Source of the DNA: Marine Group II euryarchaeote MED-G36
Lineage (GTDB): Archaea > Thermoplasmatota > Poseidoniia > Poseidoniales > Thalassarchaeaceae
Assembly: GCA_002457595.1 (NCBI GenBank)
Contig: NTJR01000003.1
Location: 1 to 45,673, forward strand
DNA: 45,673 nt
Direction: 5' to 3'
Shown here: positions 4,095-45,624 of the stretch, piece by piece
Numbering within the stretch: the first letter of the stretch is position 1
Layout of the letters: every line of letters begins with the position of its first letter
Notes under the pieces: generated by a model
What the model was told of the DNA's origin: nothing
Databases searched by the model: none
What the model saw: only the letters and a program-made list of their open reading frames with translations
Translations under genes and position numbers: made by a program

Positions 4095-5267
4095 TCAAGG
4101 CTGAATCGATCTATTAATGACAATTCTCTGAACTTCTTGCGTCCCTTCATAGATTTGAGTAATTTTAGCATCTCTGAAGAATCTTTCAACAGGGAAGTCT
4201 GTAGTATATCCATAACCACCTAGGACCTGTACTGCACGTTCCGCAACCCACATTGCTGTGTCGCCAGCGAATAACTTGGCCATACTGGCTTCTTTCGTGT
4301 GTCGAGGTGCTCCTTCCTCGTAGTGGCGCTGCTTAGACCATGCAGCCTTGTAGACCATCATACGTGCTGCTTCTGTTTGTGTAGCCATATCTGCTAGATA
4401 ATTCCCAATACTCTGGTGATGAGCTATCGGCTTACCAAATGCTTGACGCTCATGTGCGTAGTTTAGTGCTGATTCATATGCACCTTGAGCGATTCCTAAT
4501 GCCTGTGCAGCAATCCCAATGCGAGAGTTGTCTAATGCGTTCATCGCAATTGGAAAACCATTACCCGCACCTTTGATTACATTCTCAATCGGTACTTTAC
4601 AATCGTCGAGTAGTAGAACACAAGTGTCAGAAGAACGAATGCCTAACTTTTCCTCTTTCTTCCCTACACTGAATCCTTCCATGCTTGAATCGACAATGAA
4701 AGCTGTAGTTCCTCCATGCTTCTTGACTCCATAATCTGGGTGATCAACATCCTTAGCGAAAAGAACATAAATCTCAGCACTCTTTCCATTGGTCACCCAC
4801 ATTTTTTCTCCATTGAGAATGTAGTGTGTGCCATCTTCACTGAGTTTAGCCCTGCAACCTAGCGCTGCAGCATCTGTTCCTGCGCCTGCTTCTGAGAGAG
4901 AATAAGCACCAATTTCTCCTTCTGCGAGGCGAGTTAAGTAACGCTGTTTTTGGTCCTCATTACCGTGTAGTGCTATGGTTTTGGAACAAAGTCCAACATG
5001 AACGCAGAACATTACTGAGAATGATGGGTCAACGCGAGCCAGTTCCTCAACAATAATCGCTTCACTAATATCATCAACAGGGCTACCTCCATATTCTTCG
5101 GGAATAGTAATGCCCTGTAACCCATACTCACAGAATGCTTTCCATTCTTCTAACGGAGGTGTTGCGGTCCTATCTCGCTCTAGACACGTAGGTGCTAAAA
5201 CTTCCTCGGCAAAGCCTCTGACCATCTCTCGAATCATACCTTGTTCTTCGGTCTCCATGAAGTCCAT
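4095..5267 (-). CDS. Acyl-CoA dehydrogenase
   Basis: This FAD-dependent flavoenzyme oxidises acyl-CoA to trans-2-enoyl-CoA in fatty-acid or branched-chain amino-acid catabolism and passes electrons to ETF. The full family architecture is present in 390 residues. There is an N-terminal helical domain with PEEYGG. The middle beta domain carries YSLSEAGAGTDAAAL and WVTNG. The C-terminal helices carry ERQAFGKPI and QVLGGYGY. The catalytic base is Glu374 in YEGTQEVQR, the position used by short-chain/butyryl-type enzymes. I chose the ATG at 5267, which has a GGTGAAAG sequence just upstream; a GTG at 5279 is possible. It diverges from the GcvH-like gene across about 120 bases. The subfamily and substrate are not certain. 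Confidence 0.92.
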   Translation of the reverse strand: MDFMETEEQGMIREMVRGFAEEVLAPTCLERDRTATPPLEEWKAFCEYGLQGITIPEEYGGSPVDDISEAIIVEELARVDPSFSVMFCVHVGLCSKTIALHGNEDQKQRYLTRLAEGEIGAYSLSEAGAGTDAAALGCRAKLSEDGTHYILNGEKMWVTNGKSAEIYVLFAKDVDHPDYGVKKHGGTTAFIVDSSMEGFSVGKKEEKLGIRSSDTCVLLLDDCKVPIENVIKGAGNGFPIAMNALDNSRIGIAAQALGIAQGAYESALNYAHERQAFGKPIAHHQSIGNYLADMATQTEAARMMVYKAAWSKQRHYEEGAPRHTKEASMAKLFAGDTAMWVAERAVQVLGGYGYTTDFPVERFFRDAKITQIYEGTQEVQRIVINRSIQP

Positions 5268-5324
5268 ACTTTCACCCACTGCGGCCGAGGTGGGAGCCGT
5301 TGTTAATCCCTGCTGGAGGGGTTT

Positions 5325-5340
5325 TTGGCATATTCGCCAA
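5325..5340. promoter_or_regulatory. Inverted repeat in divergent intergenic region
   Basis: TTGGC and GCCAA face each other across six bases (ATATTC) between the divergent acyl-CoA dehydrogenase and GcvH-like genes. The placement suits a shared operator or a core promoter with an AT-rich centre. No regulator is known; this is inference from symmetry and position only. Confidence 0.3.
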
Positions 5341-5388
5341 TCGAATCATTCAAATTAGAGGCCATTAGGGGCGCGTTCGGAGATTAAC

Positions 5389-5889
5389 ATGTCCGACTCC
5401 GATTACTTCGAATTTGGTATTGCTCACGACCGCCGCTACACATTGGAGCACCTTTGGCTCCAATTGTTAGATGAGAAAGACGGGACCGTCAAAATCGGGA
5501 TGTCGGAATTCATACGTGCCGACTTTGGAGATGTTGTCCGAGTCATTCTTCCACACCCGCAGGATACTAGTGAGTTTCTTATTGATGAGGAAGGTACTGA
5601 TGATGATGGTGAGGAAGATGAATCAAAGCCAAAAAAGCCTTCTTCTGGTGACGAAATAGGTATTGGTGAGCTATTAGTAACAATTAGAACAGTTTCAGAT
5701 AGAATCCTGATAAATTCACCATTTCCCTGCAAGGTACTTGAGTTGAATGGAGAAGTTGAGGATAATGCAGATCTTGCGAATGACGATGCATTTGGTGACG
5801 GTTGGTTCCTAATAGTAAAGCCTCATGAATTTGATGAAGATCAATTTTTAGATGCTGGAGAGTACATCGAGTATCTCAACGAGCTCTGA
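5389..5889 (+). CDS. GcvH-like protein lacking the lipoyl lysine
   Basis: This 166-residue protein has the H-protein fold of the glycine cleavage system. TLEHLWLQL, TVKIGMSEF, FGDVVRVILP, TVSD, SPFPCKVLELN and DGWFLIVKP follow the canonical order. In true GcvH a lysine in the motif [ES]-x-V-K-A-x-S-D carries lipoate. Here the aligned residue is Arg100 (ATIRTVSD-type context; codon AGA). A very acidic, Lys-tailed insertion occupies residues 61-86, before the lipoyl hairpin. The rest of the fold is intact, so this is not a decayed pseudogene. GcvT, GcvPA and GcvPB are 27-34 kb away in the same window; no other H protein is visible. It may be a non-lipoylated scaffold or regulator, or a paralogue beside a true GcvH elsewhere. 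Confidence 0.8.
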   Translation: MSDSDYFEFGIAHDRRYTLEHLWLQLLDEKDGTVKIGMSEFIRADFGDVVRVILPHPQDTSEFLIDEEGTDDDGEEDESKPKKPSSGDEIGIGELLVTIRTVSDRILINSPFPCKVLELNGEVEDNADLANDDAFGDGWFLIVKPHEFDEDQFLDAGEYIEYLNEL

Positions 5890-7143
5890 TTAAGGCCAAC
5901 TCAGCGCCGGCCAATTTTCAGGATTTTCGGTTTCCCACTCAATAGTTTTGAGTAAAGCAAGAACTTCATCAGCACTTTCGAGGTCATCCTCAATTTGACG
6001 TCTATGAAGCCACCCTTTGAGTCGCCCTAGTCTTCGATCAGGTTCTAGATTAGTTTCTTTGATTAATTGTTTTCCATTGATTAATGGTTTTCTTCCAGCT
6101 AAAGGTTCAGAAATTGCCGCGGCCTTAGAAATATAATCATCCCCCTCGACACCAAAATATGCTTGAAGGTCATCTTGCATAGATTTCGATAAAGAGATAT
6201 TGAATCTTCTAAGTGTAGCGGGACTGTCATCTGCCAAATCTATAAGTTCAACATTGTGTAGAAATTCAATTCGTTTTGCCTCATCATTTGAAAGACGCAA
6301 TGAGTTTTTCAATGACATGGCTAATTCTAATCCAGAGCGCTTATCATTTGAGCAAATTATTGCAAGGTCAACTGCCGGTTGATGTGAGAAATCTGAATCG
6401 ATATTAAGTTTGAAACCACTCAATATTTCCTTGAGAACGCCATGTTCGGACATAATTTGAAGGGTTGAATGGCTATTTTTCCCCTTGAAAATTTGCGATA
6501 GTTCGTTCCACTTTCTTTCAGCAGAAACCTTTTCCAGCATCCCTAAATTTACAGTAATTGCCTGACTTAGTGATTCATCAAGGTGTCGTAGACCCATTTT
6601 TCCAGCATCTAGAAATCTAAAGGCTCGCATAATTCTCAATCCATCTTCATTCAATCTTTCATGGGCTTCACCAACGGCTCTAACTACTCCTATTGACAAA
6701 TCCTCTTGGCCTCCAAAGATATCTATTAGCTCACTAGTTTTTGCATCTACTGCCATGGCGTTAATTGTGAAATCTCTGCGCGCCAAATCTTCTAAAATAT
6801 CCGTGCCAAAAGTAACCTCTTCTGGCCTTCTTCCGTCTATGTATTTTCCATCACTACGAAGTGTAGTGACTTCCCAAGAGAGGTTTTTTTCATTGTCTGC
6901 AAATAATCCTTCATCAGGTAAAACAATTACAGTTCCAAAGTGTTCACCAACCGGAATAGTTCGTGCGAATAATTCGGAAATTTCGTGTGGCTTCAGATTA
7001 GTTGCGATGTCAATTTCGGTAGGATTCAGATTAGAAATTGAATCTCGAACCCATCCGCCTACAATCCAAGCATTTCCAGATTGACATAGTCTCTGTAGAA
7101 CCCATCGGTCCGCATCACCGAGTCGCTCGCGTAGGTCCTCCAT
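5890..7143 (-). CDS. Class II (bacterial-type) CCA-adding enzyme / poly(A) polymerase family
   Basis: This nucleotidyltransferase would add or repair the 3' CCA of tRNAs. It belongs to the bacterial/eukaryotic class II family, not to the class I enzyme typical of archaea. The evidence is GGWVRD (residues 29-34), EIDIATN (43-49), RRDFTINAMA and the neck motif LNEDGLRIMRAFRF. A helical C-terminal region of about 200 residues follows. One oddity is the metal-binding DxD pair, which reads Glu43-Ile-Asp45, so the first aspartate is a glutamate. It abuts the GcvH-like gene tail to tail, with no gap, and diverges from the SerK-like gene with 74 bases between starts. A poly(A)-polymerase-like role cannot be excluded. 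All tRNA genes in this window already encode CCA, so a repair role is plausible. Confidence 0.85.
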   Translation of the reverse strand: MEDLRERLGDADRWVLQRLCQSGNAWIVGGWVRDSISNLNPTEIDIATNLKPHEISELFARTIPVGEHFGTVIVLPDEGLFADNEKNLSWEVTTLRSDGKYIDGRRPEEVTFGTDILEDLARRDFTINAMAVDAKTSELIDIFGGQEDLSIGVVRAVGEAHERLNEDGLRIMRAFRFLDAGKMGLRHLDESLSQAITVNLGMLEKVSAERKWNELSQIFKGKNSHSTLQIMSEHGVLKEILSGFKLNIDSDFSHQPAVDLAIICSNDKRSGLELAMSLKNSLRLSNDEAKRIEFLHNVELIDLADDSPATLRRFNISLSKSMQDDLQAYFGVEGDDYISKAAAISEPLAGRKPLINGKQLIKETNLEPDRRLGRLKGWLHRRQIEDDLESADEVLALLKTIEWETENPENWPALSWP

Positions 7144-32934: not shown

Positions 32935-34086
32935 GTGACGAGCGGTAACCCGGTGCGCACAGCATTGTTTGATTGCCATGTGGAAGCGGGTGCGAAGCTC
33001 GTAGATTTCCATGGTTTTGAATTGCCGATTTGGTATTCTTCAATCCAGGAAGAACATCTCTCTTGCCGTTCTGCTGCAGGGATGTTTGATGTGTCGCATA
33101 TGGGTTTCTTCGCATTCAAAGGCTCCAAAGTCTCTGATTGGCTTGAGGATATTTCAACTCAGCGAATATCTTCCTTCACTCCTTCTCGTTGTGGCTATAC
33201 ACATTTCCTCGATCATGATGGTCGAATAATTGACGATATGATATTCGCTGTGAAATCGGATTCAGAAATACTTGGGGTTCCAAATGCCTCGATGATATCT
33301 ACTATGTGGGATTGGTTTCAAAAATTACTACCAAAGGATGGCTCTGTTGAGATTGTTGATTTGTCAGATCAAACCAGTATCATCGCAGTCCAAGGCCCTA
33401 CAGCACCTGCTATAATTGGTGAAGTCCTTGGCCAAGAAAATATGGTTGGCCGATTCAAATGTAGTGAGATTATGGTTAATGATTTGGGTGTAAGTGGATG
33501 GATTCAGGGTACTGGATATACGGGTGAGAAGGGTGTTGAGATTTTTGTTCCAAATGAACAGGCCCCTAAACTCTGGAGTGCTTTAATTGAGGGTGGAAAG
33601 TCACATGGGCTTGTTCCTGTAGGACTTGGAGCAAGAGATACTCTTCGGTTAGAAAAGGGATATTTACTATCGGGGCAAGATTTTCTCTGGCCCGGTTTGG
33701 GATTACATGAAGACGAATCTCTGCCCAGTAATTTCCTATCTCGTGACACAGCTGAGACCGCTGTTCCATTCGGTTTGGATATGGAGCATGATTTTGTAGG
33801 CCGTCAACGCGTTGCAGAATCTCTTGAATCTGGCTCACGTTGGCGTGGTCTGAAATGCCTTGATAGAGGTCCTTCTCCACGCCTTGGCCATCGCGTTTTA
33901 AAATCCGATTCTGATGATTCAATACTAGTTGGGTATGTAACAAGTGGAGGGCCGTCTCCATCTTTATCCAGAACTGGGATTGCTATGGCATATCTTGATG
34001 ATGTGCAAGTGGGCGATGAAGTTTGGATTCAGGCCAGTTCTCGCCGTAGAGTAAGGGCTGAAGTCGTACAACCTCCTTTTGTTTAG
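32935..34086 (+). CDS. gcvT: Glycine cleavage T-protein (aminomethyltransferase)
   Basis: GcvT takes the aminomethyl group from lipoylated H-protein, releases ammonia and makes 5,10-methylene-THF. TALFDCHVEAGAKLVDFHGF, GMFDVSHMGF, HDGRIIDDMIFAV (catalytic Asp), VQGPTA, GYTGEKGVEIFV, ARDTLRLEKGYLLSGQD and GYVTSGGPSPSL are the family's landmarks in order. 383 residues, complete, GTG start. It is separated from gcvPA by the EF-hand gene and the SDR-like gene. The gene order gcvT ... gcvPA-gcvPB, without a nearby standard gcvH, is notable. Confidence 0.95.
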   Translation: MTSGNPVRTALFDCHVEAGAKLVDFHGFELPIWYSSIQEEHLSCRSAAGMFDVSHMGFFAFKGSKVSDWLEDISTQRISSFTPSRCGYTHFLDHDGRIIDDMIFAVKSDSEILGVPNASMISTMWDWFQKLLPKDGSVEIVDLSDQTSIIAVQGPTAPAIIGEVLGQENMVGRFKCSEIMVNDLGVSGWIQGTGYTGEKGVEIFVPNEQAPKLWSALIEGGKSHGLVPVGLGARDTLRLEKGYLLSGQDFLWPGLGLHEDESLPSNFLSRDTAETAVPFGLDMEHDFVGRQRVAESLESGSRWRGLKCLDRGPSPRLGHRVLKSDSDDSILVGYVTSGGPSPSLSRTGIAMAYLDDVQVGDEVWIQASSRRRVRAEVVQPPFV

Positions 34087-34158: not shown

Positions 34159-36105
34159 ATGGCAAGCCGAAATTTCGAAGCAGTTGCTATCAAAAAGCTT
34201 CAGGAAATTCTAGCAGATAAGGGATATACTGCAGAAATGGTATTTGAAAAGTATGATGCCGATGGAAACGGTTCTCTAGATCTTCAAGAATTTCGAACAG
34301 CATTATCTGCGATTACAGGACAAAGTGCTCCAGAACCAATAATTCGTGCTGTATTTGGTGTTCTAGATGGTGACAATAATGGTTCTCTAGAATTAGCAGA
34401 ATTGTACGCATTAATCGATCGGGGGGATTCTCCTGTGGCTGAAGGAGAAGTTGGCGGCATACAAATTTCAGGTCATTCTAATCCGGCCTACAATGGTTCT
34501 TATTCGAGACAATCAGACCTGATAAATGGCATGCCGTGGTTCAAGAAATCAAATGGTAATCGAATGTATTTCACAAATGCTAATACTTCAGCTAGTTCTT
34601 GGAATCTTGATGACCGTGAACAAGATGGCCACAACGATTGGTATCGTGGTGGATGGACTAGAGCATCAGGTGGAAAAATTCCAATTGGAACTAGAAGATG
34701 GGTTGGAGTTGGACAATTAACAATTAGTATGACTGGAGATGAGCCAACCGTCAGCCCCTCAGAAGCTAGTGATGAAAATACATCCGCAATTCGCCTTGAA
34801 ATCGCCAAATCTAACTTTTATTCTAATGAAGAAATAGTCCTTGATTTCACAGTCCCTGAGATGTCTCATGATGCTTGGATTGGGGTCATTCCTGCTGAAA
34901 TTCCACATGGTGATGAGGCTGTGAATGACGAGCATGATGTTAGTTACAAGTACCTTCAAGGGGCAACAATTGGAGAATTTTCATTCCCTAATCCAGGGTT
35001 GGGTGATTGGACTATTAGACTTCATGACAAGGATGAGGGTGGGAGTGAGTTGGCATATGTGGAATTCAATGTGGTGCCTCTTCTTGCTCCAGTTGAATCA
35101 TTGAATGAGAATTTTTCCGAAGAGAATTTTGTCAGTGATATTGCATTAAGAGTGGAGGCAGTGGCTAATAATCCTGAATTAACCATACAAGAGGCGAGGC
35201 AAGTTGCTGATTTCCATGTCGAAGAAAGAATCCAAAAACTCCCCTTCTTTATGCAAGCATCAGCACGGAATATTTGGGCTGAAAAGGCAGAAGAAATGGT
35301 ATTGGCTACGCGAGCTCATATACCCGAAGCGGCAGATTTGGCTAAGGGGGCCGCAGTAGCGGGTCTTGTTGGAGGGACAACTGCGGCGATTGTTGCGAAT
35401 TCGACAAGCATAGACATGCAGACGCCTCAGGAAGCTGCAGTTGATGCTGTGATTAGAAATGTTGCTGATCGAACTGTTGAAACAGCAGTCGGAGAAATCA
35501 GAGGCAGCGCGGAATCTAGATATCAATCCTCTCAGGAATGGCATGATACTCATAAGGTAGAAACTCCGAGTCAGGAATCATCATCTGAGTGGCATAATGA
35601 ACATCACGTAGAAACTCCAGATCGAGTCAATGTCCCTGATCGCGTTTCGGTTCCCGATTCTCCCGAGGTTTATTCTCGCAGCAAATCGAGACAAGAAGTC
35701 ACGGGTTCTTCTGTATCAAGTTCTGTAATTTCTGAAACACCTGATCCCTCCACTTCTGTAGTATCTGAGGCCTCTTCACTGGACCTTTCACAAGTTTCTA
35801 CTATCCTCAATGAAGCTAGATTCTTGAATGACCAACAGGCAATTATTGCTGAAACAGAAGGTAAGGAAACTTCTGTTATGTTACAAGTTGAAAAAATAGA
35901 GAGGACCTTTTCAATTGGTCTTGATGATGCATATCGAGGCGGTCAAACTGTTATTGGAAAGATAGACGGAGTGGGTGAAGTCGAGATTCACTTGAAACCA
36001 GATTATGACGTCAGTGATATTCGCTCACATAGTGAACTTGCAATAGTTGTTAGTGTTCACAAATGGAATGGGATTCGCAAAAGACTAGAGCTTAACGCTC
36101 AGTGA
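34159..36105 (+). CDS. Large multidomain protein with EF-hands (unrecognised architecture)
   Basis: 648 residues without a signal peptide, so probably cytoplasmic. Two canonical EF-hand loops lie at residues 33-44 (DADGNGSLDLQE) and 70-81 (DGDNNGSLELAE). Residues 100-190 form a Trp/Gly-rich domain (NPAYNGSYSRQSDLINGMP, MYFTNANTSASSWNL, WYRGGWTRA) that resembles small beta domains of protists. Residues 208-306 look like a SKICH/immunoglobulin-like sandwich (DAWIGVIPAE, YKYLQGATIGEFSFP). A helical segment with a glycine-rich hydrophobic stretch (398-413) follows, then a disordered linker with two EWH-x3-H/K-VETP repeats (460-487) and a C-terminal beta domain (580-645). Calcium-dependent scaffolding is a guess. 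It lies between glycine cleavage genes, 72 bases after gcvT. Confidence 0.75.
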   Translation: MASRNFEAVAIKKLQEILADKGYTAEMVFEKYDADGNGSLDLQEFRTALSAITGQSAPEPIIRAVFGVLDGDNNGSLELAELYALIDRGDSPVAEGEVGGIQISGHSNPAYNGSYSRQSDLINGMPWFKKSNGNRMYFTNANTSASSWNLDDREQDGHNDWYRGGWTRASGGKIPIGTRRWVGVGQLTISMTGDEPTVSPSEASDENTSAIRLEIAKSNFYSNEEIVLDFTVPEMSHDAWIGVIPAEIPHGDEAVNDEHDVSYKYLQGATIGEFSFPNPGLGDWTIRLHDKDEGGSELAYVEFNVVPLLAPVESLNENFSEENFVSDIALRVEAVANNPELTIQEARQVADFHVEERIQKLPFFMQASARNIWAEKAEEMVLATRAHIPEAADLAKGAAVAGLVGGTTAAIVANSTSIDMQTPQEAAVDAVIRNVADRTVETAVGEIRGSAESRYQSSQEWHDTHKVETPSQESSSEWHNEHHVETPDRVNVPDRVSVPDSPEVYSRSKSRQEVTGSSVSSSVISETPDPSTSVVSEASSLDLSQVSTILNEARFLNDQQAIIAETEGKETSVMLQVEKIERTFSIGLDDAYRGGQTVIGKIDGVGEVEIHLKPDYDVSDIRSHSELAIVVSVHKWNGIRKRLELNAQ

Positions 36106-37074: not shown

Positions 37075-38442
37075 ATGGACCAACTTCCGAATCTAGGTCG
37101 CGAGAATGAGATGCTGAAAGAGATGGGTCTTTCATCCATTGATGATTTATTCTCGGACATCCCTGAGGAGGTTCGCAGAACTGAAGTTCTTCCATTACCC
37201 GAGCCTCAATCAGAGGAGGAAATTCTAGCTGATGCACAACGTTTGTTGGGGGTAAACATCGACTTAGATTCACGCCCATCATTTCTATCAACTGGATTGG
37301 CTCGAAACTTTGTTCCTACTATGGTTGGGATGTTAGCCACTAGAGGAGAGTTCCTTACGGCTTACACTCCTTACCAACCAGAAGTATCTCAAGGAATGCT
37401 ACAGGCTATGTGGGAGTTCCAAACAATGATTTCAGAATTAGTTGCTCTTCCTGTATCCAATGTCTCGATGTATGATGCCAGCACATCAGCCGCAGAAGCA
37501 ATCACCTGTGCGGTCAGAGTCAAGGGTCGTAAGGCCGAGCAAAAAGGAGTTGTTTATGTTTCACAGTTTGTACCACCTCACCGATTTTCAGTGATTGAGA
37601 ATTACACACAAGGCGGTGGAATTGAATTGCGTATTCTTGAGCATGGCGAAGACGGCCAAATTGATCTTGAGGCTGCACATGTTGCAGCCGGTGCTTGCGC
37701 TGTATATGTTGAGCAGCCCAATGCCTTTGGCCAGTTAGATGAGGGAATCACACAATTGAAGGAAATCATAGGAGAGCATACCGCGTTAATCGTTGGTGTT
37801 GATGCGGTATCGCTAGGTATTGTTGAGGCACCTGGGAATTATGGGGCGGATATTGTTGTTGGAGAGGGCCAGCCTTTCGGAATCGGTCCAACCGCTGGTG
37901 GGCCAATTTACGGATTATTCGCCTGTAATATGGAGTACCTTCGCCAGATGCCCGGTCGTATTGTTGGAAAGACTCTGGATGAGGATGGACGTGATGCTTT
38001 CACACTGACTCTTTCAACACGTGAACAACATATTCGTCGTCATCGTGCAACTTCAAACATTTGTTCTAATGAAACATTAATCGCTTTGATGGGTGCTATG
38101 CACATGGCTCTCTTAGGACCCGAAGGTCTAGAGCGTCTAGCATTACGTGTGGCAGCATCCACAGAGGCAGCAAAGAAAGCAATTTCTTCAATTGAAAATG
38201 TCGAACTAGTATCTCCTAGTATGCCTAATTTCAGAGAATTTTCTGTCAAATTACCAGGTCTCGCCAGTGATGCTCTATTATTCATGGATGATAGAGGAGT
38301 TCTGGGTGGCTTCGATATTGGAGAATGGTGGAACTCGAAGTCTTCACACCTTCTAATTGGTTGCGATGAAAGAACTAGTAAGTCAGATATTGATGCATTA
38401 GTTGATGCACTCAGTTCTTGGATTGAGGAGGTGGTTTCTTGA
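37075..38442 (+). CDS. gcvPA: Glycine dehydrogenase (decarboxylating) subunit 1, GcvPA
   Basis: The N-terminal half of the split P-protein. SFLSTGLARNFVPTMVGML, TAYTPYQPEVSQGMLQAMWEFQ (written in two parts, with YQPEVSQG the hallmark), NVSMYDASTSAAEAI, GEGQPFGIGPTAGGP and TLSTREQHIRRHRATSNIC are conserved. 455 residues. With GcvPB it forms the PLP enzyme that decarboxylates glycine and hands the aminomethyl group to lipoyl-H protein. The gene ends in an overlapping stop/start (TTGA) with gcvPB, so translation is coupled. Confidence 0.95.
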   Translation: MDQLPNLGRENEMLKEMGLSSIDDLFSDIPEEVRRTEVLPLPEPQSEEEILADAQRLLGVNIDLDSRPSFLSTGLARNFVPTMVGMLATRGEFLTAYTPYQPEVSQGMLQAMWEFQTMISELVALPVSNVSMYDASTSAAEAITCAVRVKGRKAEQKGVVYVSQFVPPHRFSVIENYTQGGGIELRILEHGEDGQIDLEAAHVAAGACAVYVEQPNAFGQLDEGITQLKEIIGEHTALIVGVDAVSLGIVEAPGNYGADIVVGEGQPFGIGPTAGGPIYGLFACNMEYLRQMPGRIVGKTLDEDGRDAFTLTLSTREQHIRRHRATSNICSNETLIALMGAMHMALLGPEGLERLALRVAASTEAAKKAISSIENVELVSPSMPNFREFSVKLPGLASDALLFMDDRGVLGGFDIGEWWNSKSSHLLIGCDERTSKSDIDALVDALSSWIEEVVS

Positions 38443-39923
38443 GCGATATCTACGAATTCAATGGAGCGGCTGGAAGTGGGTGGTCTCAGCCCCCTCCTAT
38501 GTTTGAAGGCGCAGAAAAAACAATCCCAATTTCTCTACGCAGATCAAAACTTCCTGAATGGCCAAGGGCTAGTGAACCGGAACTCGTCAGGCACTATACA
38601 TGGCTTTCACAGAGAAACTTCGGAATAGATACAGGTTTCTATCCATTGGGTTCGTGCACAATGAAACACAACCCCAGAGTTAACGAGAGAATTGTTAACC
38701 TTCCAGGTATTGATCGGATTCATCCATTACAACCAGAGCATCAAATCCAAGGTTTGCTCGCTATCTTCTTTGAGATGCAAGAGATGCTTGAGATATGTGC
38801 TGGAATGGATCAAGTCACGTTGCAACCAGTTGCTGGCGCTCAAGGCGAGTTTGCTGCAATTAGATGTATTCAAGAATACCACCGTGACATTGGTGAGGGT
38901 CATAGAGACAAAGTCATCGTTCCTGATTCTGCTCACGGAACTAATCCCGCATCTGCAGCAATGTGCGGATATGAGGTAATTGAGATACCAAGTGGATCTG
39001 ATGGCCGGTTAGACTTGGATGCTTTGGGAGCTGCAGTTGGGGATGATACTGCCGCGATGATGGTTACCAATCCTAACACATTAGGGATATTTGAGCCTGA
39101 GATTGCACAAGCTGCTGAGATAGTTCACGCTGCCGGTGGTCAAATGTATTACGACGGAGCCAACTTCAATGCGATACTTGGCAAAACAGATCCCGGCCGG
39201 ATGGGATTCGATGCGGTACACTACAATCTTCACAAAACCTTCAGTCAGCCTCACGGAGGAGGTGGTCCTGGTAGTGGACCGATAGGTGTCAAGTCACATC
39301 TCGCAGCATACCTACCTGCTCCTGTGGCTGATCGTGAGGAGACTGAAGGAGGGGGTATTGTTGGAAATGGGTTCCGTTACTTCTGGAGAACTCCTGAAAA
39401 AAGCATCGGCAAGGTTCAACAATGGCATGGGAATGCCGGCGCAGTAATCCGTTCTTGGGCCTTCTATCGTAGGTATGGACGTGAACTAGAGAAGATGAGC
39501 GAACATGCTGTCCTCAATGCGAATTACCTCCGTCACCGGATAATGCAGGGCGCTGAAGGAGTCCATGCAATGCCATTAGATGGAGCGCCAGCAGATGTAG
39601 TGAAACATGAATTCACGTTGTCCATGACTCCTCTGAAGGATGCTGTAGGAGTTTCAGGTAAAGATGTAGCAAAAAGATTGCTCGATTATGGCTACATGTC
39701 TCCAACTCTGTATTTCCCAATGATAGTTCCGGAGTGCCTAATGATTGAACCAACTGAGACTGAATCAAAGGAAGTTTTAGACAAATTCGCGAAAGATTTT
39801 CTCACAATTCTGGCAGAAGATCCAGAAATTGTCACAACAGCACCACACGACACTAAGGTTCGTAGAGTTGATGAAGTTCTAGCTGCTAGAAGTTTAGTGC
39901 TTCGCCATCCACTTACTGACTGA
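38439..39923 (+). CDS. gcvPB: Glycine dehydrogenase (decarboxylating) subunit 2, GcvPB
   Basis: The C-terminal half of the P-protein, with the PLP lysine Lys266 in YNLHKTFSQPHGGGGPGSGP. PLGSCTMKHNPRVNE, GAQGEFAAIRCI, PDSAHGTNPASAAMCGYE and NTLGIFEPEI are standard. 494 residues. The start is a TTG at 38439, behind a strong GGAGGTGG eight bases upstream, overlapping the gcvPA stop. The complex needs lipoyl-H protein, and the only H-like protein here has Arg at the lipoyl site. The stop overlaps an ATG (TGATG) that seems to be the original start of the next gene. Confidence 0.96.
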   Translation: MSDIYEFNGAAGSGWSQPPPMFEGAEKTIPISLRRSKLPEWPRASEPELVRHYTWLSQRNFGIDTGFYPLGSCTMKHNPRVNERIVNLPGIDRIHPLQPEHQIQGLLAIFFEMQEMLEICAGMDQVTLQPVAGAQGEFAAIRCIQEYHRDIGEGHRDKVIVPDSAHGTNPASAAMCGYEVIEIPSGSDGRLDLDALGAAVGDDTAAMMVTNPNTLGIFEPEIAQAAEIVHAAGGQMYYDGANFNAILGKTDPGRMGFDAVHYNLHKTFSQPHGGGGPGSGPIGVKSHLAAYLPAPVADREETEGGGIVGNGFRYFWRTPEKSIGKVQQWHGNAGAVIRSWAFYRRYGRELEKMSEHAVLNANYLRHRIMQGAEGVHAMPLDGAPADVVKHEFTLSMTPLKDAVGVSGKDVAKRLLDYGYMSPTLYFPMIVPECLMIEPTETESKEVLDKFAKDFLTILAEDPEIVTTAPHDTKVRRVDEVLAARSLVLRHPLTD

Positions 39924-42734: not shown

Positions 42735-45518
42735 TCATTCAATTCGTCTTCTAGCTACTAGCATAGCTGACAATATTGCTAGAGTGCCTAGAATAGCCCC
42801 AAATCCAGGAGTCTCATCTGGGGCTACATAATCAGGTCCATCTGTATTGTCTGAATCTAAAGAATCACAAATTCCATCACCATCAATGTCATCTGGGATG
42901 GATGATGAATCCAGTGAATTTGACCCACAGGAATCTTCATCTGAATCACTCCAAGAATCGTTATCATCATCTGTATCTGCATTATCTCCTGTGCCATCTG
43001 AGTCGAAGTCACTCCATTCTGTAGAATCTCTTTCAAATGCGTCGTCAGCATCTCCGAATCCATCTCCATCATCATCAGGATCTTGCAGATCACACATTCC
43101 ATCATTATCCAAGTCATCGGGAATAGAATTGCTATCAAGAGTATCAGATCCGCAGTTTGTTTCTATATCATCAGGCCACGAGTCACCATCGTCATCGGCA
43201 TCTTGTGAATCACACAAATCATCGTTATCTGTATCAAGCCAATAATTTGCATCAAGAGGTGCACAATCATCTCCATCATCATAGCCATCTCCGTCATCGT
43301 CTACGTCAGTTGAGTCACATTCTCCATCCGTGTCTGAGTCTAATGGTAATGAGGAACTATCTTTTGGATCCGATGCACAAGCAATTTCGTTAACATCTGA
43401 AACACCATCTCCATCATCATCGTCATCTTGACCGTCACAAATTTGGTCGTTGTCAGTATCATCCCAATCGCTGACATCTAGAGGTGCGCAATCGACACTG
43501 TCGTCTACCCCGTCACCATCATCATCGTCATCTTGGCCGTCACAAATTTGGTCGTTGTCAGTATCATCCCAATCGCTGGCATCTAGAGGCGCACAATCGA
43601 CACTATCTTCTACGCCATCTCCATCATCGTCAGTGTCAGCATTATTTCCAATATCATCATCGTCAGTATCGGTATCTTCAGTATTGTCTAGAGGGAAAGC
43701 ATCATCCAAATCGGGAACGTTGTCGTTATCATCATCATCATCTAGAACATCACACAGTCCATCATTATCATAATCTGCTGGAATACTACTTCCATCTCGA
43801 GGGTCGCTACCACAATTAGTTTCCATAGTATCTTCTACACCATCTCCATCGTCGTCGGTGTCAGCATTGTTTCCAATGCCATCACCGTCAGTATCTGCAG
43901 ATTCTGTGTAGTCACGCGGAAATGCATCATTTACATCGAGTACTCCATCACCATCGTCATCAGTATCTTGGTTGTCACCGATTGCATCTGCAATACATTC
44001 AGTTGTACAGGATGCATCTGTGTTATTCCATTCCGTAGGGTCAGAAGGAAAAGCATCCTGTGAGTTGATGTATCCATCTCCATCATCATCAAGATCTAGT
44101 GAATCACAAATTCCATCTCCGTCAGAATCTGCTGGAATGCTGTTTCCATCTAGCGGATCAGTTCCACAATCTGCTTCTTCTAGATCAGTCCACGAATCAC
44201 CATCGTCATCATCATCATCAACGTCGCAAATTCCATCATTATCTGTATCAATTGCCTTGCTTCCGTCTAAGGGTGCACAATCATTAGCGTCACTGGTGCC
44301 ATCTCCGTCATCATCATCATCCAAGGCATCACAATTCCCATCATTGTCGGTATCCATAGGAATACTGCTTCCATCCATGGGGTCACTTCCACAGGCAATT
44401 TCAGTTGAGTCGGATGAGCCATCATTGTCATCATCAGTGTCTTGACCATCACAGATTCCGTCACCATCATTGTCCGAACTCTCACTTGAGTCAAGAGGTG
44501 CGCAATCACTAGAATCGTCTATTCCATCTCCGTCATCATCATTATCGAGGGAATTGCATGTTCCATCGGTATCTGTGTCAACTGGAGTTGATGAATTATC
44601 TAGAGAATTAGTATTACATGCAGCTTCATCTAAGTCACTCCATCCATCATCATCATCATCTAAATCCTCAATTAGAGTAGTACTTCCAGTTCCACCCCCG
44701 CTACTGCTTGAGAAAGTAACATTATCGATGTAGACTGATTCACTGCCTGAATTAGAAGTGAATTCAAATTCTAAATTACCTTGGCCAAGCGAGCTAATGT
44801 TCGAAGTGAAGCTAGTCCAAATTCCCATGTAGGGAGCAAAACCACCGTTATTGCTGGATCCAGTAGCGCCGGTTACATTTACCAGCTCAAGTGTCGAGGA
44901 ACCTCCTACAAATCTGATGATTAGATTGTCTGCGTTCTCGTAGCTATTGGGATTACTACCGCTACCTGTACCTTGAACATAAACATCGAAAGTCATTGAA
45001 TCCGCTGTAACATCGTCAAGAGTCAAGGTTGCAGTTCCATCAACATCACTCATCTGGTATCCTTGTGTTCCTTGACTGAAATTCCCAACCGTTCCAGTGT
45101 AGTTCACCGTTCCAAAGTAGTCGCCATCAGTCAATCCCACTCCACCGGTGGACTCGTAGTACAGTGAGAAACCCATTTCAGAGCCAGTGGATTGGTTATG
45201 AGCGACATGAGGTTCGTTGATATTATTCCAGAGATACCGGTCTACATTCTGGTCACCAGTGTCTGTATAATACATATTGGAGATTGTAAACGGGTCTTCA
45301 AAAGAAGTGTATGATACTACTCCTCCAGACCCGGGGCAACTAATCGAATCAGGCATTCCATCACCATCTGTGTCAGTATCTGCACAAGGGTCATTGGGAA
45401 AAGCATCGTTTGAATCGTCTACCCCATCCCCATCCGAATCATCCGCCAAAACAGTTGGTGGAATCATCACTAGAAGTAAGGCAATTAGTAGAGTCAGGGG
45501 CTTCGCAGAACCGTTCAT
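42735..45518 (-). CDS. Giant exported Ca-binding (TSP type 3) surface protein with PGF-CTERM anchor
   Basis: About 927 residues from the ATG at 45518, which opens a clear signal peptide (AKPLTLLIALLLVMIPPTVLA). A first Asp-rich repeat is followed by a roughly 220-residue beta-rich domain (SYTSFEDPFTISNMYY to SVYIDNVTFSS), probably a lectin/MAM-like sandwich. Then come some 20 thrombospondin type 3-like repeats of the form DTDNDGxCDxxDxDDDGDG with regular CGSDPxDxSSIP spacers. The end is TPGFGAILGTLAILSAML plus RRR: a PGF-CTERM sorting signal that an archaeosortase would cut for lipid anchoring. The repeats should be stiff and calcium-loaded. No archaeosortase is in the window. A start at 45557 would spoil the signal peptide. 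Confidence 0.87.
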   Translation of the reverse strand: MNGSAKPLTLLIALLLVMIPPTVLADDSDGDGVDDSNDAFPNDPCADTDTDGDGMPDSISCPGSGGVVSYTSFEDPFTISNMYYTDTGDQNVDRYLWNNINEPHVAHNQSTGSEMGFSLYYESTGGVGLTDGDYFGTVNYTGTVGNFSQGTQGYQMSDVDGTATLTLDDVTADSMTFDVYVQGTGSGSNPNSYENADNLIIRFVGGSSTLELVNVTGATGSSNNGGFAPYMGIWTSFTSNISSLGQGNLEFEFTSNSGSESVYIDNVTFSSSSGGGTGSTTLIEDLDDDDDGWSDLDEAACNTNSLDNSSTPVDTDTDGTCNSLDNDDDGDGIDDSSDCAPLDSSESSDNDGDGICDGQDTDDDNDGSSDSTEIACGSDPMDGSSIPMDTDNDGNCDALDDDDDGDGTSDANDCAPLDGSKAIDTDNDGICDVDDDDDDGDSWTDLEEADCGTDPLDGNSIPADSDGDGICDSLDLDDDGDGYINSQDAFPSDPTEWNNTDASCTTECIADAIGDNQDTDDDGDGVLDVNDAFPRDYTESADTDGDGIGNNADTDDDGDGVEDTMETNCGSDPRDGSSIPADYDNDGLCDVLDDDDDNDNVPDLDDAFPLDNTEDTDTDDDDIGNNADTDDDGDGVEDSVDCAPLDASDWDDTDNDQICDGQDDDDDGDGVDDSVDCAPLDVSDWDDTDNDQICDGQDDDDDGDGVSDVNEIACASDPKDSSSLPLDSDTDGECDSTDVDDDGDGYDDGDDCAPLDANYWLDTDNDDLCDSQDADDDGDSWPDDIETNCGSDTLDSNSIPDDLDNDGMCDLQDPDDDGDGFGDADDAFERDSTEWSDFDSDGTGDNADTDDDNDSWSDSDEDSCGSNSLDSSSIPDDIDGDGICDSLDSDNTDGPDYVAPDETPGFGAILGTLAILSAMLVARRRIE
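43402..43611. repeat. Near-identical 105-base tandem duplication inside the TSP3 region
   Basis: Two adjacent 105-base units (35 codons) differ at only about seven positions by eye. They encode the same TSP3 block around CAPLDxSDWDDTDNDQICDG. Other repeats in the gene are far more diverged, so this pair is a recent duplication. Confidence 0.8.
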
Positions 45519-45624
45519 GGGCGAGGAAGTGAGGCGGGATTGAAATAATTCACCCACATTGACTCTGTAATTTCCCTGAAGGTTGAACCAACATCCTCTT
45601 TGACCTAATGCTCAAGCAGAGGGT

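Follow-up and report, generated by a model that had tools for sequence, protein, structure and literature searches.

A lysine-less paralogue of the glycine cleavage H protein is encoded next to a short-chain-type acyl-CoA dehydrogenase in Poseidoniales archaea

The window, by which we mean the whole analysed stretch of 45,673 nucleotides, encodes a 166-residue paralogue of the glycine cleavage H protein (GcvH), which we name H. Its reading frame is intact and has the boundaries given in the original prediction. H is transcribed divergently from a neighbouring acyl-CoA dehydrogenase gene, whose product has 4l1f as its closest solved relative and further butyryl- and short-chain acyl-CoA dehydrogenases among its matches. 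Visual comparison across the loci of f1, one of the two Poseidoniales families sampled, reveals two short blocks, ATTAACAAC and CGAATCATTCAA, within the shared intergenic region, and these are candidate promoter elements. Genes of the canonical glycine cleavage system occur further along the window and are listed for context only (Table 1).

Table 1. Features of the H locus and related genes, in window coordinates.
Feature	Position	Strand	Basis or remark
Divergent acyl-CoA dehydrogenase, short-chain type, Bcd/SCAD-like	4095..5279	-	Pfam; Met start about 5267 also possible
Shared divergent intergenic region	5280..5388		Blocks kept in f1; visual comparison across f1 loci
Block ATTAACAAC, candidate promoter element	5299-5307	-	Kept in many f1 divergent intergenic regions
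Block CGAATCATTCAA, GAAT-N-ATTC dyad, candidate promoter element	5342-5353	+	Kept in many f1 divergent intergenic regions
H, lysine-less GcvH paralogue, 166 aa	5389..5889	+	Pfam GCV_H; orthologues in almost every Poseidoniales relative sampled; dN/dS about 0.05
Leu22 codon; a conserved Glu in the HEW motif (Glu14 in E. coli H)	5452..5454	+	L 50, V 2 of 52 rows
Acidic insertion, residues 57-86	5557..5646	+	Alignment; pLDDT <50 at 57-86; mean dN 0.32
Hairpin, residues 95-109; bears the lipoyl-lysine in true GcvH	5671..5715	+	Predicted strands 95-101, 105-109
Arg100 codon, residue named in the original prediction; pairs with Glu61 of ESVK	5686..5688	+	Alignments
Ser103 codon; pairs with the lipoyl lysine, K64, in canonical GcvH	5695..5697	+	Alignments; column without Lys in 52 rows
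GcvT	32935..34086	+	PF01571 and PF08669; context only
GcvPA and GcvPB	37075..39923	+	NF001696 and NF003346 above cut-off; context only

The GcvH fold proposed for H is supported both by Pfam, in which the GCV_H domain scores 56.3 bits (cut-off 22.2), and by an AlphaFold2 model built from the orthologue alignment (mean pLDDT 71). The top PDB matches of this model in Foldseek are glycine-cleavage H proteins, the first being that of T. thermophilus (1onl; E 3.8e-9, TM 0.80 on the target). The acidic insertion described ahead of the hairpin is also present, with a span of residues 57-86 in the alignment rather than 61-86. It is the fastest-evolving part of H, is probably disordered judging by the low model confidence there, and is limited to f1 (Thalassarchaeaceae-type) members, those of the second family, f2, having no insertion. 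The predicted pI of H is 4.05, and a role as a DNA-binding regulator is unlikely by charge, although most proteins in the window are likewise acidic.

In canonical GcvH of Poseidoniales, the hairpin carries the motif ESVKSVSEI.AP. The segment from Gly93 to Pro111 of H has the same length as its canonical counterpart and aligns to it ungapped: GELLVTIRTVSDRILINSP (H) vs. MDACGSVESVKSVSEIFAP (canonical). Thus, Ser103 pairs with the lipoyl-lysine K64, and Arg100 with E61. The same register for Ser103 is obtained in a MAFFT alignment with 17 canonical sequences and in a profile-profile alignment. In the H model, a strand (95-101) is followed by a turn (102-104) and a second strand (105-109), with Ser103 at the hairpin tip. 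One further MAFFT run, in which one canonical GcvH was added to 80 orthologues, aligned Arg100 with K64 instead (R 44, T 32, L 2, M 2 in that column; no Lys), which we read as an artefact since some H orthologues have 4-residue insertions in the hairpin. The original prediction was thus right that the lipoyl lysine is missing, and its substitution of Arg100 for that lysine was off in register by three residues; the register rules out Arg100 as the lipoyl-lysine site despite the one alignment in which it appears there.

The loss of the lysine is genuine and no sequencing error: Lys is found at the K64 column in 0 of 52 aligned rows, which include the window protein and represent both Poseidoniales families. 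Lysine-bearing orthologues, named along with the original prediction as a ground for refuting it, thus did not turn up. The site is hypervariable, with E, S, D, N, Y, F and other residues among the orthologues. H is therefore almost certainly a non-lipoylated paralogue. A shift of the modification to another lysine of the hairpin, at least in f2, would leave H a modified protein, and a Lys does stand two residues past the tip in 14 of 16 f2 rows (as in TAEEK), the same position being Arg in most f1 rows and Lys in a few. However, the window protein, nearly all f1 rows and two f2 members (L041 and L042) lack this lysine, and in the model of an f2 orthologue, which is of low confidence (mean pLDDT 58), the lysine starts the second strand instead of lying at the tip. 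The ESVK motif and the glutamate that binds the lipoyl arm are gone as well, and we consider a displaced modification very improbable.

The surroundings of the site are also remodelled. Glu-14 of the E. coli H protein binds the aminomethyl-lipoyl arm (PMC7733448), and its position in H is occupied by Leu in 50 of 52 rows and by Val in the other two. We looked at three arm-holding residues, namely: E. coli Glu12, Glu14 and Ser67. This set is not kept in H; in the 52 aligned rows, Val, Leu or Ile predominate at the Ser67 site, and the Glu12 site is still mostly acidic. Also lost are the lysine-adjacent E61 and S62, together with A32, Q33 and E15. Seven residues found throughout GcvH are retained (Y17, H21, W23, G37, N120, W139 and Y159), and a further set of positions has become nearly fixed in H (E8, F9, R15, G47, R51, G121, E158 and L163).

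H is under strong purifying selection, the median within-genus dN/dS being 0.055 over 18 pairs. Pseudogene decay or an error in sequencing could account for the loss of a catalytic residue and for a fast-evolving insertion, but intact orthologues without the lysine occur in two families at a dN/dS of about 0.05, and this explanation is discarded.

H coexists with the gene set of a complete, lipoylated glycine cleavage system. In its own genome (57% complete), another contig encodes a canonical GcvH with the motif ESVKSVS, and LipA and an LplA/LipB-type enzyme are encoded as well. Both of the checks suggested along with the original prediction, for a second, lysine-bearing GcvH and for lipoylation genes, thus returned what was sought. 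LipA and LplA/LipB-type enzymes are found in all 6 genomes tested, canonical GcvH in 56 of the 59 genomes searched and GcvPB in 55. These finds in its own and related genomes rule out that canonical GcvH or the lipoylation enzymes are missing. Since canonical GcvH, LipA, LipB, GcvT, GcvPA and GcvPB occur in the same genome, H is an extra paralogue. One genome, G013, has two canonical GcvH copies (L057, i.e. G013:C250, and G013:C33), the C250 copy grouping with the f2-type sequences and perhaps lying on a contaminating contig.

H is found in 58 of 59 genomes at E 0.001. In a search of 390 genomes of the phylum, 152 pass E 1e-15, of which 127 belong to f1 and f2. The window has its relatives among uncultured Thalassarchaeaceae (MGIIb); from the family names of PMC6336850, we infer that this family is f1 and that f2 is Poseidoniaceae (MGIIa). 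The 25 passing genomes outside the order comprise one in f3, a sister group of the same class, and 24 elsewhere. Matches outside the order were retrieved from 13 genomes: 7 of these 25, plus the remaining six f3 genomes searched. For all of them, the canonical profile outscores the H profile, and the Lys is present within ESVK, ESIK or a similar motif. With 7 of the 25 outside matches read, H thus appears to be recognisable solely in Poseidoniales among the 390 genomes, and a phylum-wide H family is unsupported by the matches read, which are ordinary lysine-bearing GcvH. The named records among the best 80 matches in public genomes are likewise Thalassarchaeaceae, Poseidoniales and Marine Group II.

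In the tree, H forms one clade (support 98/96, stem length 0.78) apart from canonical GcvH. Joining H to the canonical GcvH of Poseidoniales gives a tree that the test does not reject (p-AU 0.15), the program warning of long branches, and by these sequences a duplication inside Poseidoniales is a possible origin of H. An origin beside the dehydrogenase in the sister group is rejected, as the f3 genomes searched are without H. Three lysine-bearing GcvH-related proteins, L104 (QSAKW), L105 (ESGKW) and L106 (ETAKA), in G078, G061 (f3) and G138, form long branches in the same tree.

The one neighbour of H that stays constant is the dehydrogenase. The gene for this enzyme (78-99.6% identity) lies adjacent and divergent at 79 of 80 H loci from separate genomes, taken from the best 80 matches, and at the remaining locus the contig begins inside H. 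A second set of loci, overlapping in species with the first, shows the same divergent pair wherever the contig reaches. The f1 genome G029 has neither H (at E 1e-15) nor a close orthologue of the dehydrogenase, although a single gap in the assembly may explain why both are missing. For comparison, the near-complete f2 genome G036, of which 2.0 of 2.06 Mb were read, preserves 14 of the window's 33 near-neighbour gene pairs, so a single conserved gene pair means little; a pair kept across many genomes while both of its flanks change is weightier. Beyond the pair, the genes differ by clade (CCA nucleotidyltransferase, HMG-CoA synthase, phosphoribosyltransferase or EF-hand protein), and in f2 the pair is inverted relative to the CCA nucleotidyltransferase gene and still unbroken. 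The dehydrogenase is the sole neighbour of H common to f1 and f2. The two proteins evolve at different rates, the dehydrogenase slowly and H fast, with about 79% and 34% identity to their G036 counterparts, respectively. An orthologue of the dehydrogenase (70-73% identity) occurs in the sister group f3, where H is missing, so the enzyme is not dependent on H in every lineage. At three of the five f3 loci (L304, L305 and L306), the dehydrogenase gene is flanked by an alanine dehydrogenase/PNT-type gene on one side and by NAC-domain and pelota-like genes on the other.

On its other side, H is followed in f1 by the CCA nucleotidyltransferase gene, usually convergent, or by that of HMG-CoA synthase, and at most f2 loci by a co-directional phosphoribosyltransferase or diphthamide-synthesis gene at short distance. 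In most f2 loci (e.g. L050:4377-6592), the same-strand order is H, phosphoribosyltransferase, then diphthamide-synthesis, Cdc6-like, ribosomal S6e and eIF2-gamma genes; the mostly short spacing suggests co-transcription of f2 H with the genes downstream. H might thus serve another partner or pathway, for example these translation-related neighbours, with its place beside the dehydrogenase due only to a shared promoter or to a gene order passed down by descent, as the background synteny of 14 in 33 pairs would allow. However, the f2 context is absent in f1, where the next gene is usually the convergent CCA nucleotidyltransferase, and the dehydrogenase alone is common to both families; we regard a different pathway as rather unlikely.

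With no lipoate-bearing residue at the usual site and other residues nearly fixed, H is likely to work by binding a partner. We propose that H has kept the GcvH fold, has lost the chemistry of a lipoyl carrier and would act as an adaptor, assembly or regulatory subunit. Being the sole constant neighbour of H, the dehydrogenase is the best candidate partner, and the shared intergenic region would keep the two in step; we name it as the partner tentatively, at somewhat below even odds. As a whole, the preferred reading is that H is an old, vertically inherited, non-lipoylated GcvH paralogue of Poseidoniales with a binding or regulatory role, possibly on the dehydrogenase, and to this joint statement we assign a probability of about 0.45. 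More speculative, and improbable as it stands, is that H, derived from a disarmed H protein, is a dedicated regulatory or electron-transfer-related subunit of the dehydrogenase and connects the oxidation of acyl-CoA to glycine and one-carbon metabolism in MGII.

The main rival to this reading is that H regulates glycine cleavage itself, as an inactive look-alike that occupies the GcvH site of GcvT or of GcvPA/GcvPB and competes with GcvH or docks beside it. The retained fold and several GcvH-wide residues fit such a role, as does the canonical system found alongside H in nearly all genomes. Against it, E61, S62, A32, Q33 and E15 are lost, and H has no conserved linkage to the gcv genes, which in G036 (gcvT/gcvP) lie about 770 kb away; we judge it unlikely, although less so than a role with the f2 neighbours. 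Of the partners first suggested for H, the glycine cleavage proteins, encoded in the same window, are thus weakly tied to it by gene position, and the neighbouring dehydrogenase is better supported. The more general suggestion of a non-lipoylated paralogue with a new role agrees with the order-wide loss of the lysine, the remodelled arm pocket, the purifying selection and the coexisting GcvH, LipA and LipB, the exchange of lysine for arginine being the detail that fails.

Compared with GcvH (PF01597/TIGR00527), H shares the fold, many core residues and a Pfam match above cut-off, but it differs in having no lipoyl lysine, in the loss of ESVK, in the change of the arm-binding Glu to Leu and in forming a separate clade; with the TIGR00527 equivalog it scores 58 bits, below the cut-off of 115.85. 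Matches to the chlamydial GcvH-like family TIGR03077 (34.7 bits, cut-off 144.05) and to the GcvH-related family NF045810 (24.9 bits, cut-off 150) are weak and also below cut-off. GcvH-L of Streptococcus (5a35), a Foldseek match, has a GcvH-like fold in common with H; it is reportedly lipoylated and tied to sirtuin/macrodomain operons, whereas H is without the acceptor lysine. The eukaryotic protein ABITRAM/Simiate is described as a GcvH-like fold without lipoylation. LbpA of Hdr-like sulfur oxidation is, like H, a GcvH-like protein outside glycine cleavage, but in LbpA a lysine is strictly conserved and two cysteines are mostly present, and its gene lies in hdr clusters (PMC6067878). The conserved lysine of LbpA is missing from H, and no hdr genes are among the identified neighbours of H. 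In literature searches of open-licence papers, we found no published description of a lysine-less H paralogue.

Pfam labels all 16 scanned f2 members of H 'Glycine cleavage H-protein', and by that label alone automated annotation could count H as a working H protein. The host group, the Marine Group II Poseidoniales, is common in the ocean. A carrier protein that persists throughout an order of abundant marine archaea without its cofactor-bearing residue offers a clean case of a repurposed enzyme subunit.

Other genes of the window are of separate interest. A ParB-like ORF overlaps the CCA nucleotidyltransferase gene in antisense (7038-7143), and the two are still neighbours in many f1 and f2 loci. 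On the minus strand, a 940-aa ORF (42735-45557) has no Pfam match at E 0.001, and a 648-aa protein encoded on the plus strand (34159-36105) carries EF-hands at its N-terminus.
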